A DNA stretch of 21,641 nt from a virus: the IMG/VR virus record IMGVR_UViG_3300013126_002903, positions 1 to 21,641 of that record. One strand, 5' to 3'. The translations under genes and the position numbers were made by a program. Below, piece after piece: positions 7,673 to 17,004 of this stretch; the first letter of the stretch is position 1, and the number at the start of each line of letters is the position of its first letter. Under the pieces are notes generated by a model. The model was not told the DNA's origin. It made no database searches and saw nothing but the letters and a program-made list of their open reading frames with translations.

Positions 7673-7704
7673 GGGGGAGGGTCCGCCCCTCCGGACCCTC
7701 CCCC
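7673..7704 (+). terminator. Strong GC hairpin, probable terminator
   Basis: A perfect 13-bp inverted repeat (GGGGGAGGGTCCG, 6-nt loop, complement) lies 17 nt after the stop of the GHD protein gene. No U-tract follows, so it is either a stem-only terminator, a partial attenuator or an mRNA 3' stabiliser. The nuclease gene downstream has no promoter of its own, so some read-through is expected. This would keep the GHD protein high and the nuclease low. Confidence 0.65.
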
Positions 7705-9716: not shown

Positions 9717-10181
9717 ATGGCAGTCCCCGGTAACGTAGTCGATCCGTTCGCGCAGTCCAATCCGCAGGAAGACGTCGAGTTTCAGGTAGACCTGACCGAT
9801 ATCCAGTCGAATTTCCGCATCCCGAAGGGCGAGTACGAAGCGGTTTGTTTCGATGTCGAGCGGTCCATCAGCGACGCGGGCAACCCGATGATCATCTGGT
9901 CTTTTCGCCTCACCAAAGGCGAATTCGCCGGACGCGAATGGAAGAACTTCACGGCCCTGACTCCGCAAGCGATGTGGAAGGTGGCCGAGACAGTCGAGTC
10001 GCTTGGTCTTGGTGCGACCGGTTCTGTGTCCCGGTTCAAGGCCGAAGACGCCCTCGGCCGACTCTGCGTACTCGCCATGATCGATGACGAGTACAAGGGA
10101 CAGAAGCGATCCGCTATCGGTTCGGTAATGCCCCACCCGGACGGAGTCGGGACCAAGATGAAGGCAGCCGGTCAGCCTTAG
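9717..10181 (+). CDS. Probable ssDNA-binding protein (DUF669-like, 154 aa)
   Basis: The layout is that of phage DUF669-type proteins encoded next to Sak4 ATPases: a short N-terminal arm (NVVDPFAQ), a beta-rich core (DIQSNFRIPKGEYEAVCFDVERSIS, NPMIIWSFRLTKGEFAGREWKNFTAL), a helix around the ALTPQAMWKVAETVESLG segment, and a final strand pair (GRLCVLAMIDDEYKGQKRSAIGSVMPHP). These are believed to coat single-stranded DNA and help the annealing ATPase. The start ATG has only a weak ribosome binding site. Upstream spacing is 28 nt and the gene is followed by a hairpin. The assignment rests on fold pattern and neighbours, not on a catalytic motif. Confidence 0.65.
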   Translation: MAVPGNVVDPFAQSNPQEDVEFQVDLTDIQSNFRIPKGEYEAVCFDVERSISDAGNPMIIWSFRLTKGEFAGREWKNFTALTPQAMWKVAETVESLGLGATGSVSRFKAEDALGRLCVLAMIDDEYKGQKRSAIGSVMPHPDGVGTKMKAAGQP

Positions 10182-10209
10182 CGAGAAGCTGAGCACGACC
10201 CGCCTGTAA

Positions 10210-10240
10210 GGGGCTGGCCTACGCACTCCGGGCCAGCCCC
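10210..10240 (+). terminator. 10-bp hairpin between SSB-like and polymerase genes
   Basis: GGGGCTGGCC, an 11-nt loop, and GGCCAGCCCC form a perfect stem in the 89-nt gap. No U-tract follows and no promoter is seen before the polymerase, so this looks like an attenuator or an RNA processing site rather than a full stop. It is the first of three hairpins clustered over the start of the polymerase gene. Confidence 0.55.
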
Positions 10241-10250
10241 CAATTCCACA

Positions 10251-10309
10251 AAGAAGGGAGGGGAAAATCCATGGCGACCGTCAGCACCGAAGATTTCCCC
10301 TCCCTTCTT
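10251..10309 (+). promoter_or_regulatory. Long hairpin enclosing the polymerase ribosome binding site and start
   Basis: The arms are 10251-10269 and 10292-10309. They pair over 18 bp with a single bulged A. The left arm holds the Shine-Dalgarno GGGAGGGG (10256-10263). The ATG (10271-10273) is in the 22-nt loop and the right arm is codons 8-13. Folded, this would hide the ribosome binding site, so the polymerase should be translated only when the hairpin is opened or not formed. This is the geometry of the T4 gp43 translational operator, where the polymerase binds its own mRNA. That analogy is inference. Confidence 0.75.
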
Positions 10310-12007
10310 CGTCGAATTGACGCCGCCGACGAGATTACCGTCGACCTTGAAACCACCGGGCTGCACCCATGGCTAGGCGATGAAATGGTGGGTACAGCCA
10401 TCCAAACAGACGGGCGGGATACTTACTACGTTCCATTCCGCCACTTGCACTCTAATCTCCCGCCCGTCTGTTTGGGTCCTCTAGTAAAGACTCTGGAACG
10501 CCACCCCAACCATGTCTACTTCAACGCCCAGTTCGACATTCAGTTTCTGATGGCCGAGGGTATGAAGTTGCCGGTGCACATTAAAGACTCAATGCTTGCC
10601 GCCCATCTGGTAGACGAAAACGAACCGAGTCACGCCCTCAAGACGCTAGGTGACAAGTACATTGGCACCGGGGCCAGCGCTGAACAGAAGGCCCTCGACA
10701 CCATCCTGCTAGAACACAAATTAAAAAAGAATGAGATGGGGAAGCTGGACCCCGCGTTGGTCGCACCCTACGCCGAACAGGACGTGCGTCTGACCACTCA
10801 GCTTCTCCGGTTCTACGAACCAAAGCTAGCCGCGTGGCACATCTCCCACCTATTCGACGAAGCCAACGAATACGCCCGGGCGTTGACGGACATGAGCGTT
10901 ACCGGTATCGCCATTGATGTTAATCTTACTCGACAATACCTCGAAGAATGCGGTCCGCAGACGGACGCCGCCAAAGCTACGCTACGAAAGTTGGCCGATA
11001 ATCCCAACCTCAACCCGGCCAGTGCTCCGCAAATGAAGAAGTTGTTGGGATTGCCGTCCACAGCCGCCCCGTTCTTAGAGCGGTTACAAATGCAGGGCAA
11101 ACTGTCGGACGAACAAAAGACGCTGGTGGATGCCATCCAGCTATTTCGCAGTTGGAATCGAACAGCCGGGGCTTATTACCAGCCGTACCTTGAGTCGATG
11201 GATGAAAACGGCGTACTGCATCCGACCTTCAACCAAGCCCGAGTGGTAACCGGACGACTAAGTTGTTCCGATCCCAACCTACAGGCAATTCCTCGCCACG
11301 ATGACCGGGTGGTTGGCAAGGTAAAAAACATCTTCATTGCTCGTCCCGGGTTTACTTTGGCGAATGCCGACTACGGACAGGCCGAGTTGCGGATGCTTGC
11401 ACACTACACCCAAGACCAAGAGATGATCGACCTGTTTCTCTCTGGCGTTGACTTCCACGGAGCGACAGCCGAGCAATTCCATATGTCCCGGGATGTCGCC
11501 AAGCGAATTAACTTCGGGATAGCATACGGACTCGGTAAGCGGGGTCTATCCGAGCGTACCGGGTTAACCGAGCAACAAGCCGCCGCGCACCTGAAACGAT
11601 ACCACAACGGACACCCCGGAATTCGACGCCTGATGAACATGGCTGAGAGTACCGCCGTCAACCGGGGTTATATTCGCATGTGGACAGGTCGACCAGCCCG
11701 CTTCCCTGCCGGGGCGCGAGATGCACACAAGGCGATGTCAACCTTGATCCAAGGCGGGGTGGGTGAGGTCATGCGGGTAAAGATTACCGAACTGCACAAG
11801 GGACTACCCCGTTTTGGTGCCCGAATGACTCTGCAGGTTCACGACTCGATCATGTTTGAGATTCCAGACGAGAACCTACAAGAGACGCTGGCGTATATCC
11901 GGGCGACGATGACGGACCTTCCGTTTAGCTGCCCATTTATTGTTGATATAGAAGTAGGGAAACGGTGGGGAACCGCCGAGAAAGTAAAACAAGGAGTAGC
12001 AGCATGA
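10271..12007 (+). CDS. polA: Family A DNA polymerase with 3'-5' exonuclease (DpoZ candidate)
   Basis: Replicative polymerase (578 aa) with proofreading and no 5' nuclease. Exonuclease motifs: VDLETTG (Asp25, Glu27), NAQFD (Asn85, Asp89) and YAEQD (Tyr167, Asp171). Polymerase motifs: TGRLSCSDPNLQAIP; motif A ADYGQAELR (Asp367, Glu372), where family members usually have DYSQIELR; motif B R407..K411..F415..Y419 G; motif C QVHDSI (Asp525), where the usual HDE has become HDS. The gene overlaps purZ by 4 nt. Together with purZ this suggests the DpoZ group, which copies 2-aminoadenine in place of adenine. The start is fixed by GGGAGGGG 7 nt upstream, which lies in a long hairpin. Confidence 0.93.
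   Translation: MATVSTEDFPSLLRRIDAADEITVDLETTGLHPWLGDEMVGTAIQTDGRDTYYVPFRHLHSNLPPVCLGPLVKTLERHPNHVYFNAQFDIQFLMAEGMKLPVHIKDSMLAAHLVDENEPSHALKTLGDKYIGTGASAEQKALDTILLEHKLKKNEMGKLDPALVAPYAEQDVRLTTQLLRFYEPKLAAWHISHLFDEANEYARALTDMSVTGIAIDVNLTRQYLEECGPQTDAAKATLRKLADNPNLNPASAPQMKKLLGLPSTAAPFLERLQMQGKLSDEQKTLVDAIQLFRSWNRTAGAYYQPYLESMDENGVLHPTFNQARVVTGRLSCSDPNLQAIPRHDDRVVGKVKNIFIARPGFTLANADYGQAELRMLAHYTQDQEMIDLFLSGVDFHGATAEQFHMSRDVAKRINFGIAYGLGKRGLSERTGLTEQQAAAHLKRYHNGHPGIRRLMNMAESTAVNRGYIRMWTGRPARFPAGARDAHKAMSTLIQGGVGEVMRVKITELHKGLPRFGARMTLQVHDSIMFEIPDENLQETLAYIRATMTDLPFSCPFIVDIEVGKRWGTAEKVKQGVAA
10402..10475. repeat. 18-bp perfect inverted repeat inside the polymerase gene
   Basis: Arm 10402-10419 is the exact reverse complement of 10458-10475, with a 38-nt loop. 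It lies in codons 44-69 of the polymerase, next to the hairpin at the start codon. Such a long perfect repeat in conserved coding sequence is not expected by chance. It could be an mRNA structure acting with the start-site hairpin, or a DNA cruciform or single-strand origin element. Confidence 0.8.
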
Positions 12008-13053
12008 TTACAGCCGTGGTAGGTGGCCAATATGGGAGCGAAGGGAAGGGCGTTATCGTCCACCACATCGCAAACCGTTACGACGTTCACGTGAGGACGG
12101 GTGGCCCGAACGCCGGACACTCGTTCCAACACCTTGGGAAGGTCTGGAAGATGCAGGTGATTCCTTGCGGCTGGACCAACCCAAATGCCCACATCATCAT
12201 CGGGCGGGGTGCTTTGGTGGACCCACACCAACTACAACTAGAACTGGAAGCGATCCGAAAGGTGGATCCGACGATCGACGAGCGGCTGTTCATTGACGCT
12301 GACGCCGGAGTACTCGACAGTCGCTACCACATGGCCGAGGGTGGGGTTGCCGGGGCCATCCACGCACGCATCGGCTCCACCGGGGAAGGCGTAGGAGAAG
12401 CCCGCATGGCTCGTATTGCCCGGAATCCAGAAGCTAACGGCTTCCGGTTGTGGAAAGACGCCGCGTCGGAGTTCGGATTTGAGCATTTGTCCTACCCGGA
12501 CACACCCCGCATGCTTCACGAGTCGATTCGCCAAGGGGATCACGTTCTGCTCGAAGGAACACAGGGAAGCGGGTTGTCGCTCATCCACGGGCCATGGCCT
12601 TACTGCACCAGCCAAGACACCAACGCTGCAACTCTGGCAGCAGAAGCCGGGATTCCGCCGCAGCACATTACCGACGTTCTCTTGGTGGTACGCACTTATC
12701 CGATTCGCGTTGCCGGAAATTCCGGCCCACTGGAGCGGGAGTTGACGTGGGAACAAATGAGTGCTCGTATCGGCAAGCCGGTCGAAGAAAAGACCACCGT
12801 CACTCGCCTCGTGCGCCGGGTGGGCGAGTGGGACCCTGACCTTATCAAGCGGTCGTCCGTTCTGAACAGCCCGACTTCTGTTGCATTGACATTTGCCGAC
12901 TACATCTCCCCACAAGATGAAGGGAAGAAAGAATGGAACCAGCTGTCCCGGCACACCATCGATTTTGCCGAGAGTGTGGGGATGGTAGCCGGGGCACCGG
13001 TTAACTTCATCGGCACGGGCGGCTCCGTGTGGAGTGTCTGCGAGCGTGGATAG
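12004..13053 (+). CDS. purZ: PurZ-type adenylosuccinate synthetase (2-aminoadenine synthesis)
   Basis: PurZ joins aspartate to dGMP, giving N6-succino-2-amino-dAMP, the precursor of base Z. The protein has 349 aa, the length of PurZ and archaeal PurA rather than bacterial PurA (about 430). The P-loop reads GGQYGSEGKG: Ser12 stands where PurA has the catalytic Asp that activates IMP, a change described as typical of PurZ. Other sites: GGPNAGHS (His39), GSTGEGVG (125-131), LLEGTQGSGLSLIHGPWPYCTS (182-203), VRTYPIRVAGNSGP, and TTVTRLVRRVGEWD. The ATG at 12004 overlaps the polymerase stop (ATGA) and has AAGGAG upstream. The next gene is dut. An ordinary PurA making AMP is the alternative, but the Ser argues against it. 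Confidence 0.9.
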   Translation: MITAVVGGQYGSEGKGVIVHHIANRYDVHVRTGGPNAGHSFQHLGKVWKMQVIPCGWTNPNAHIIIGRGALVDPHQLQLELEAIRKVDPTIDERLFIDADAGVLDSRYHMAEGGVAGAIHARIGSTGEGVGEARMARIARNPEANGFRLWKDAASEFGFEHLSYPDTPRMLHESIRQGDHVLLEGTQGSGLSLIHGPWPYCTSQDTNAATLAAEAGIPPQHITDVLLVVRTYPIRVAGNSGPLERELTWEQMSARIGKPVEEKTTVTRLVRRVGEWDPDLIKRSSVLNSPTSVALTFADYISPQDEGKKEWNQLSRHTIDFAESVGMVAGAPVNFIGTGGSVWSVCERG

Positions 13054-13477
13054 GGTCTATTTCGTCCTCGGGTCAGAGTCTTTCGCGGAACCACAGGCTC
13101 CGGCCCGAGCCTATCCTTCCGATGCAGGTTGGGACCTTTTCGTGTCCCGAACCACAGAGGTGATCGGCAACAGTTTTGTCGATGTCCACACCGACATCAA
13201 TATCGCCATGCCGCCCGGTTACTGGGGACTTATCACCGGGCGCTCCTCGACTGTCCGCAGACGCCAACTAAGAGTAGAGCCCGGGGTAGTGGATGAAGGC
13301 TATCGAGGCGAGTTGAAGATTGGCGTATGGAACCTCAGTGGCTGGGTTACCAAAGTGTTAGCCGGGGAGCGACTGGCCCAACTGATTTTTATCGCCAGCA
13401 ACCGGTTCGAATGGCGAGAGGTAGAAAATCTCCCGCCCGGGGAGAGAGGATACAATGGATTCGGATCAACCGGTTAA
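13034..13477 (+). CDS. dut: dUTPase
   Basis: Hydrolyses dUTP to dUMP and pyrophosphate, keeping uracil out of DNA and supplying dTMP synthesis (trimeric family). All five motifs are present in 147 aa: DAGWDL (30-35), TGRSS (68-72), GVVDEGYRGEL with catalytic Asp87, ERLAQLIF (112-119), and ERGYNGFGSTG at the C-terminus. The GTG start at 13034 overlaps purZ by 20 nt; a second in-frame GTG at 13046 is possible. Its stop overlaps the next gene by 23 nt. Within this operon it fits a module that sets the composition of the dNTP pool. Confidence 0.92.
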   Translation: MSASVDRVYFVLGSESFAEPQAPARAYPSDAGWDLFVSRTTEVIGNSFVDVHTDINIAMPPGYWGLITGRSSTVRRRQLRVEPGVVDEGYRGELKIGVWNLSGWVTKVLAGERLAQLIFIASNRFEWREVENLPPGERGYNGFGSTG

Positions 13478-13928
13478 CGAAATCAAGCGTGACCTACTTA
13501 CCAAAGCGATCGAAACGACTTGTGGTGATCGCAACGTCGATTATGGTGGTCCCCGTACAAATTTCCGTGCAGTAGCTACCCTATGGGAAGCATGGGAAGA
13601 AATCTGCCCTCCGGGGAAGTACAGCCCGGAACACGACTACTGTATCCGCATGATCTTGGTGAAACTGGCCCGCATCGCGACCGGCGTCGTCAAAGAAGAC
13701 AACTACCTTGACGGCATCGGCTACTTTGCAAACGCGTGGGAGATGGCTACACCAAACCCGGTCAGTGGAGTTGTGGTATTTCACCACACCGAAGTATGGG
13801 AAGACACCAGCGTTATTTCTGGTGGGGATGGCTCCGCCGGGTTCAAGTACCCCGACGGCCCACAACCGTGGGACAACTCGCCGGACAAGATGCATGGAAA
13901 GAGTCGAGCCGATGCAAACTCCTCTTGA
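13455..13928 (+). CDS. DUF6378-like (MazG-related) protein, candidate nucleotide pyrophosphohydrolase
   Basis: Residues about 10-100 have the DUF6378 pattern: LLTKAIETTCGDRNVDYGGPRTNFRAVATLWEAW, then EHDYCIRMILVKLARIATG and KEDNYLDGIGYFANAWEM. This all-helical phage family resembles MazG-type NTP pyrophosphohydrolases, and the K..R...DN..D..GY residues would line a metal/nucleotide site. The last 55 residues are an extra, loop-like extension (GGDGSAGFKYPDGPQPWDNSPDKM). The ATG has GGAGAGGA upstream. In Z-DNA phages a MazG-like enzyme (MazZ) turns dGTP into dGMP for PurZ. Its position two genes after purZ makes it the best MazZ candidate here, but DUF6378 is also common in ordinary phages. Confidence 0.7.
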   Translation: MDSDQPVNEIKRDLLTKAIETTCGDRNVDYGGPRTNFRAVATLWEAWEEICPPGKYSPEHDYCIRMILVKLARIATGVVKEDNYLDGIGYFANAWEMATPNPVSGVVVFHHTEVWEDTSVISGGDGSAGFKYPDGPQPWDNSPDKMHGKSRADANSS

Positions 13929-15630: not shown

Positions 15631-16969
15631 GTATCCTCCGCCTCTATGGCCACACCAAGCTGAAGCCTTGTACCAAGCAACCGCGCACCCGGGGTTCATG
15701 CTGGCCATGGACATGGCCACCGGGAAATCGCGAGTGGCTGTCGACTGGATACAGAGAGTCGGAGCCAAGCGCGTCTTGTTAGTAGCTTCTGCTAATGTGG
15801 TGTCCGTGTGGCCGGATCAGTTTGAGCAGTGGGCTCCCGGGGCACACCGAGTAATTGTCCTCGCCGGGACCAACAAGCAACAAACCATGCGAATGTTGGC
15901 TGACTCCGATCCGGGCGTTTTCATTGTGACCTATGGCACGGTTTGGCGCAATCCGATGAAGGATTTCCTGTTCGATAACCGAGAAACCCATATTGACGCC
16001 GCCATCCTAGACGAAAGTCACCGCATCAAGTCGGCGGGGTCAAAGGTCTCGAAATTCTTTGCCGCGTTCGGTAGGAGACTAGAGCATCGACTGTGTTTGA
16101 CCGGCACGCCCGCCCCCAACTCCCGGCTCGACCTGTACGGACAATTCCGATTCCTCGACCCTACGGTATTCGGCACGAATTACAACCGTTTCGCGAACAA
16201 ATATGCTGTGTTCGGTGGGTTCGAGAAGCGTCAACTCCTGTTTTATCGGGAAGAGATGGAAGCCGACATGCGTAACCGCTTCTATTCCCTGTCTTATCGA
16301 GTCAAGCTCGACGATGTACTCGACGTCCCGCCCTACGTGCCTACGGTCATACGTAGCTTCCAACTAGGGAAAGAGGCATTCCGGGTGTACAAAGAAATGG
16401 AAAAAGATTCGTTGGCGGACCTACAGGGAGCAACCGCTGTTGCGGGTAGTATCTTGACCAAGATGCTCCGGCTCCAACAGGTAACGTCGGGGTTCATTCC
16501 AGACGATACTGGAAAGGTGCATCAAGTCGATACCGGGAAAATCAACGCGTTCAAAGACCTACTGGAAGACCTATCCCCGGACAAAAAGGTCGTGGTATTT
16601 TGCCTGTTTGTTCATGACATCGCCGCTGTCAAAGCAGCTGTAACGGCTTCTGGTCGGAAAGTCGCTGAGCTATCCGGAAAGATAAAGGAACTAGACGGCC
16701 CGCGATTCCCCGAGTGGGCCGACGTGCTGGTAGTCCAACAACAAAGCGGGTCTGAGGGCATCGACTTAACTGCCGCCCGGTACTGTGTCTTTTATTCGCT
16801 GGGTTACAGTAGGGGAGTTTACGACCAATGTCGTGCCCGGTTACGTCGCCCCGGACAGACTCGCCCGGTCGCTACCATCCACATCAACGCCACCAAAACA
16901 GTGGATACTCGCATCTCCAAAGTGATCGACACCAAAGGCGACCTAATTCGAGCACTGCTAGACAAATGA
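15617..16969 (+). CDS. SNF2/SF2-type DNA helicase (450 aa)
   Basis: An SF2 helicase/translocase of the SNF2 class as found in phage replication modules. Motifs: Q-like PPLWPHQAEAL (8-18), Walker A DMATGKSR (32-39), DEAH-box variant DESH (132-135), motif III LTGTPAPNSR (161-170), then the second RecA-like lobe with KVVVFCLFVHD, SGSEGIDLTAARYCVFY (motif V) and QCRARLRRPGQ (motif VI arginines). No extra domains are present, so it is close to a minimal core. It probably remodels protein-DNA complexes or recombination intermediates. The GTG start has AGGAG 9 nt upstream; an in-frame downstream start would lose the PPLWPHQ motif. It is the last gene of the rightward arm and is followed directly by a terminator. 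Confidence 0.9.
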   Translation: MNFREYPPPLWPHQAEALYQATAHPGFMLAMDMATGKSRVAVDWIQRVGAKRVLLVASANVVSVWPDQFEQWAPGAHRVIVLAGTNKQQTMRMLADSDPGVFIVTYGTVWRNPMKDFLFDNRETHIDAAILDESHRIKSAGSKVSKFFAAFGRRLEHRLCLTGTPAPNSRLDLYGQFRFLDPTVFGTNYNRFANKYAVFGGFEKRQLLFYREEMEADMRNRFYSLSYRVKLDDVLDVPPYVPTVIRSFQLGKEAFRVYKEMEKDSLADLQGATAVAGSILTKMLRLQQVTSGFIPDDTGKVHQVDTGKINAFKDLLEDLSPDKKVVVFCLFVHDIAAVKAAVTASGRKVAELSGKIKELDGPRFPEWADVLVVQQQSGSEGIDLTAARYCVFYSLGYSRGVYDQCRARLRRPGQTRPVATIHINATKTVDTRISKVIDTKGDLIRALLDK

Positions 16970-17004
16970 CCCCGGGTTACGGCACCAAACGCAACCCGGG
17001 GTCA
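16967..17004. terminator. Bidirectional terminator between convergent arms
   Basis: TGACCCCGGGTT and AACCCGGGGTCA form a perfect 12-bp stem with a 14-nt loop. The stem begins at the helicase stop codon. AAAA follows on the plus strand and a short T-rich run would flank it on the minus strand. It separates the rightward replication arm from the leftward lysis/tail arm and can serve both. A second pair of CCCCGGG blocks lies at 17013-17041, before the last leftward stop. Confidence 0.75.

Follow-up and report, generated by a model that had tools for sequence, protein, structure and literature searches.

A predicted hairpin over the DNA polymerase start of a PurZ-encoding phage as a candidate self-closing translational latch

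In the single-stranded RNA phage MS2, the maturation gene is under kinetic control, and its start site is usable only before folding of the RNA is complete. The DNA polymerase of phage T4, gp43, belongs to family B. This enzyme binds an 18-nt hairpin with a -UAAC- loop, located some 40 nt before the AUG of its own gene, together with sequence of the ribosome binding site, and T4 provides precedents for autocontrol by both the polymerase and the single-stranded DNA-binding protein (SSB) (PMC3014915). In a further group of genes, comprising T4 e, soc, I-TevI and segB as well as Aeh1 mobE, very stable structures sequester a good Shine-Dalgarno (SD) sequence, and the late transcript of I-TevI lacks upstream sequence on which the inhibitory structure depends (PMC2988022). 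Our analysis concerns a hairpin, designated I1, at the start of the DNA polymerase gene of an uncultured phage (IMG/VR virus record IMGVR_UViG_3300013126_002903, positions 1-21,641; this whole stretch of 21,641 bases is referred to as the window).

The + strand around the hairpin encodes a ribonucleotide reductase, a primase-polymerase, a PD-(D/E)XK nuclease, a Sak4-like ATPase, an SSB-like protein (9717..10181, weak PHROG SSB matches), PolA, PurZ, a dUTPase, and a DUF6378 protein. PolA (10271..12007) belongs to DNA polymerase family A and carries a 3'-5' exonuclease domain (PF00476 DNA_pol_A, PF01612); no in-frame start precedes the ATG at 10271, and the PolA N-terminus aligns with those of its relatives in the family alignment. 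PurZ (12004..13053) matches the PHROG 2-amino adenylosuccinate synthetase family (phrog_1211, E 1e-70), carries the GSEGKG motif that is common to its PurZ relatives in our alignment, and adjoins a family A polymerase, the combination that characterizes the PurZ module of Z-genome phages. The PolA stop and PurZ start overlap as ATGA at 12004-12007, with an AAGGAG SD for PurZ; the dUTPase gene (13034..13477) overlaps PurZ in turn, and the DUF6378 gene (13455..13928) overlaps the dUTPase gene. Positions 11965-13928 hold PurZ, dUTPase, and DUF6378 as an overlapping cassette immediately 3' of PolA, of which the DUF6378 protein may be a MazZ-like member. The gene set and its order agree with those of PurZ phages such as the Arthrobacter phages Wayne and PinkFriday, and with those of many uncultured phages. 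Because PurZ is encoded, the phage genome probably contains a modified base, 2-aminoadenine (Z), as judged from gene content; PMC8599892 and PMC12884076 give background on Z-DNA and PurZ.

Folding of 10240-10320 confirmed the 18-bp core of I1 described in the original prediction, in which 10251-10266 and 10268-10269 pair with 10292-10309 around a single bulged A (10267), and revealed a longer stem than had been claimed. The helix extends outward by a further 2 + 6 bp (10248-10249 with 10311-10312 and 10241-10246 with 10314-10319, leaving out two mismatches), giving a total span of 10241-10319 with a 5' arm at 10241..10269, whose outer extension covers 10241-10249, and a 3' arm at 10292..10319, both on the + strand. 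The SD GGGAGGGG (10256..10263, +) is fully paired within the 5' arm, 7 nt before the ATG (10271..10273, +), which resides in the 22-nt loop and partly in a weak 3-bp inner helix. The 3' arm consists of PolA codons 8-17 (DFPSLLRRID), with codon 8 at 10292-10294 and codon 13 at 10307-10309, so that the predicted layout of an SD in one arm, a start codon in the loop, and codons 8-13 as the opposite arm is exact. The minimum free energy of I1 was -40.3 kcal/mol against a shuffle mean of -19.7 (sd 3.4; z -6.1), none of the 200 shuffles being as stable, and the window's other gene starts ranged from -11 to -24 kcal/mol. Opening the SD would cost about 21-25 kcal/mol and clearing the 30S footprint about 34 kcal/mol. 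Among 1168 gene starts from related viral loci, the SD-pairing score of the PolA start (20) ranked first, with the runner-up at 14. As an inverted repeat I1 likewise scored 20, against a maximum of 13 when the whole window was dinucleotide-shuffled 40 times. The earlier remark that the stem exceeds the needs of ordinary occlusion was thus borne out, and stable SD pairing beyond chance, the mark of an SD-sequestering mRNA hairpin, is found at the PolA start. Rfam 15 returned 0 matches at the gathering score in the window; neither I1 nor hairpin T, a GC-rich 10-bp stem between the SSB-like gene and PolA (10210..10240, +), is followed by a T-run (the latter has no U-tract), and both are absent from the terminator list, unlike intrinsic terminators.

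Like the gene 43 operator of T4 and RB69, I1 is a hairpin in the mRNA near the beginning of a phage DNA polymerase gene and is predicted to limit translation of that gene. In I1, however, the SD is inside the stem, 7 nt from the ATG, its partner is codons 8-17, the stem comprises 24-26 bp, and the polymerase is of family A. Assignment to the gene 43 operator class is not supported, as a short hairpin with the SD outside it and a family B polymerase are both missing here. Of the original prediction that polymerase output is regulated at translation, the part that stands is the locking of a full-strength SD, from which an effect on translation is the natural expectation under the folding model, whereas the likeness to the autogenous T4 operator is not supported. 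An autogenous operator in a wider sense, in which PolA or the SSB-like protein would bind the hairpin and repress polA translation as T4 gp43 and gp32 do on their own mRNAs, is possible by analogy, and the conjunction of replication protein genes with a long duplex at the start is in keeping with it; nevertheless, the hairpin is predicted to block unaided, leaving a repressor unneeded, the geometry, loop, and polymerase family differ from those of T4 gene 43, and relatives have no SD pairing. Autogenous control is without specific support, and we judge it quite improbable.

The resemblance to T4 e, soc, I-TevI, and segB and Aeh1 mobE lies in a very stable structure over a good SD in a polycistronic phage operon. 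By extension of what is reported for these genes (PMC2988022), long early transcripts would be silenced by the hairpin, and an internal promoter would later yield open mRNAs. I1 shares the stable sequestration of the SD but not its release by an internal start: in computed folds of transcripts beginning at 10241-10260, the SD was 93-100% paired (93-99% for 10258-10260), and in those beginning from 10264 on the SD was gone. Unlike in I-TevI, the complement of the I1 SD is downstream coding sequence, initiating transcription within the hairpin cannot release the SD, and the gene is a replicase. Given this position of the SD in the 5' arm and of its complement in the coding sequence, no leadered transcript escapes I1, which excludes the arrangement described for I-TevI, leaderless mRNA aside; the promoter scan also found no sigma-70-like site in or near I1. 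The late-promoter model was rejected on this geometry, with only a leaderless version (mRNA from 10264 on) surviving, and a switch of this kind appears very unlikely.

We favor the interpretation that I1 acts in cis as a translational latch on the polymerase cistron, to which we give about an even chance of being correct. In the folding of growing transcripts, SD opening cost about 6 kcal/mol until the RNA reached approximately 10300, then 16-20 kcal/mol at 10305-10308 and about 25 kcal/mol at 10320, suggesting that the SD would be free until about 10300 has been transcribed and would then be locked at about 20-25 kcal/mol. A ribosome would load on the nascent RNA in the interval, roughly one second at textbook rates, before the 3' arm emerges, or alternatively would enter close behind another ribosome that keeps codons 8-17 open; an idle mRNA would snap shut and stay silent. 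Such a start, usable only before folding, would resemble that of the MS2 maturation gene, although MS2 is a single-stranded RNA phage and its control involves a long-range leader structure. Because the PurZ, dUTPase, and DUF6378 genes overlap successively with PolA, the latch could gate PolA together with these three, that is, the whole replication and Z-nucleotide cassette. The upstream SSB-like gene, set apart by hairpin T, would be free for production in quantity, and since a ribosome completing it would halt 90 nt upstream, opening of I1 by that ribosome is not expected.

The original account of the hairpins was correct for I1 and incomplete for the locus, having overlooked both hairpin T and a second, perfect 18-bp inverted repeat (I2) that, like I1, falls in the 5' end of the PolA ORF. 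The 5' arm of I2 (10402..10419, +) spans PolA codons 44-50 (IQTDGRD) and its 3' arm (10458..10475, +) codons 63-69 (LPPVCLG). I2 scored 18, again above the maximum of 13 reached by the 40 whole-window shuffles; the probability of perfect pairing given the peptides and codon usage was 2.3e-6, and none of 1000 synonymous recodings gave a score above 13 within the first 260 nt. As only 12 distinct repeats score at least 17 across 2.26 Mb of related viral loci, chance is no explanation for two such repeats within 235 bp, which need a common or local cause. One candidate is a DNA-level element, in which the three hairpins at 10210-10475 would form a replication or priming site as folded single-stranded or cruciform DNA, with the coding overlap incidental. 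The clustering of I1 and I2, the lack of an obvious translation-initiation role for I2, and the nearby PrimPol, polymerase, and SSB-like genes are compatible with such an element; against it, a search of 10100-10600 found no iterons, the G+C content of 0.57 across 10001-11000 is not AT-rich, and the hairpin positions are not conserved, which together render it improbable. Elsewhere in the window, strong intergenic hairpins of terminator-like appearance occur at 7673-7704 (13/13 bp) and 16967-17004 (14/15 bp), the latter at the end of an SNF2-like gene and, on the - strand, with a T-rich tail behind it.

Searches of INPHARED and IMG/VR at the protein and DNA levels yielded no relative above about 41% PolA identity. 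PurZ phages syntenic to the window were inspected start by start (L104-L127, L170, L184-L202), and SD pairing was absent in every one of the 19 other synteny-group loci, with scores of 4-9 and none above 9; likewise, no polymerase start with a repeat of at least 13 was found among 80 distant PolA relatives (<30%). Homologues that keep the protein and lose the pairing had been named beforehand as evidence against regulation, and this is the state of the 19 loci, in which the protein and gene neighborhood are kept; their PolA is mostly 37-41% identical (33% in L170), and they are too divergent to settle whether the pairing is conserved in the window's own lineage. One of these syntenic PurZ phages carries a different hairpin of 21 of 23 bp at +17 to +69 of its polymerase gene (L106:4285-4337, identical to L201:3012-3064), which is among the strongest repeats of the related loci; the observed frequency of such repeats predicts about 0.03 in the approximately 6 kb around those polymerase starts, which makes this case suggestive, albeit a single one.

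The main rival to the latch draws on the same observations and holds that the repeats are of recent mutational origin, generated while the genome was replicating by intrastrand template switching or quasipalindrome correction, and that they have little or no function. Specifically, a roughly 28-nt inverted copy of 10292-10319 would have been placed in the leader, and an imperfect repeat would have been corrected to the perfect I2. In both repeats the pairing between the arms is nearly all Watson-Crick, third codon positions included; two substitutions and one A-run indel are what separate I1 from an inverted copy; and two independent repeats in one gene that are absent in relatives, and hence lineage-specific, along with the distinct repeat at +17 to +69 in L106, are what a repeat-prone locus could produce. 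On the other hand, the I2 arms encode family-typical residues (NLP..CL; AI..GR..YY) in the family alignment, which makes a wholesale inverted copy unlikely there while leaving quasipalindrome correction unaffected, and so strong a lock over the SD of an essential gene should be costly unless tolerated or useful. We regard this origin as a serious possibility, albeit on the unlikely side. An assembly or sequencing artefact, in which chimeric reads create inverted repeats, could be suspected of a single uncultured record with no second copy of the sequence in our phage and IMG/VR searches; the intact reading frame, the agreement of residues across both right arms with the family alignment, and the normal SD position speak against this, and we consider it most unlikely.

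Across related loci, the boundary between the SSB-like gene and PolA (or primase) assumes two main states, namely, a gap of -1 to 4 nt with no hairpin or a gap of 64-103 nt with a GC hairpin. The latter occurs in the window, L104/L105, L089, L090, L092, and L005, with the hairpin just 3' of the SSB-like gene (L104:162-194; L089:3597-3629; L090:3593-3629; L092:13144-13175; L005:2258-2318). Exceptions comprise L119/L127 (91 nt, no hairpin), L107 (871 nt), L108 (486 nt, two hairpins), and L109 (frame uncertain). Because a hairpin recurs in the relatives with a 64-103 nt gap, except L119/L127, and is missing where the genes are coupled, this boundary looks like a control point. In another group of PurZ phages (L142, L146, L148, L151, L152, L154-L158, L162, L165, and L166), an inverted repeat is conserved inside a long ORF upstream of purZ; its arms, TGACCGACTTGACCGACC / GGTCGGTGAAGTCGGTCA, are separated by an 81-nt loop.

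A precedent for the geometry of I1 emerged from an IMG/VR pattern scan for the same arms, whose 10 matches were mostly intergenic or repeat-like hairpins, except for RuvC-like resolvase genes (phrog_159). In four of these (L264, L265, L329, and L333; also L317 by a looser scan), codons 5-10 (GLDPSL) form the partner of the SD region and the start codon is in the loop, while most other family members have no such pairing; L264 equals L096 and L333 equals L101, and L317/L318 and L329/L330 are each listed together. The leader changes with the codons (GGGGTCCAG/CTGGACCCC versus GGGGCCTAGGC/GCCTAGaCCCC). True leader/gene pairs had a mean score of 6.08 compared with 5.40 (sd 0.17) for swapped leaders, with 0 of 300 swaps as high, and five true cases scored at least 9 versus 1.1 with swapped leaders, in a test that controlled only roughly for relatedness and included two members found via the pattern itself. 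These data back the use of an SD/early-codon geometry, short of proof. The resolvase hairpins share with I1 the placement of the SD in the 5' arm, of the start codon in the loop, and of early codons in the 3' arm; they differ in belonging to an unrelated protein, in their shorter stems (10-17 nt), and in their presence in several divergent members. In L096 and L101, the resolvase gene is directly 3' of another same-strand gene. This family offers enough sequences for a covariation test of the principle.

Taken together, the latch is supported by the geometry and stability of I1, its outlier position among the 1168 starts, its non-chance character, the boundary pattern, the overlapping downstream starts, and the resolvase precedent. 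It is weakened by the lack of SD pairing in the synteny group and of any closer PolA relative, by I2, which is wholly within the coding region and superfluous to a start-site latch, and by a predicted lock that could be strong enough to silence the gene without an opener. The principle is known, whereas this polymerase and this geometry appear to be new. If the latch operates as proposed, the ratio of SSB to polymerase to PurZ in a Z-DNA phage would be set by one hairpin, and a complement located downstream predicts expression that depends on transcription speed and ribosome supply rather than on promoter choice. More broadly, and only as a doubtful extrapolation, a self-closing latch built from a gene's own first codons may limit the replicative polymerase and, through overlapping starts, the 2-aminoadenine enzymes of a PurZ phage, may have arisen independently with the same geometry in phage resolvase genes, and may represent an unrecognized general means by which phages couple the output of replication genes to transcription and translation in progress.
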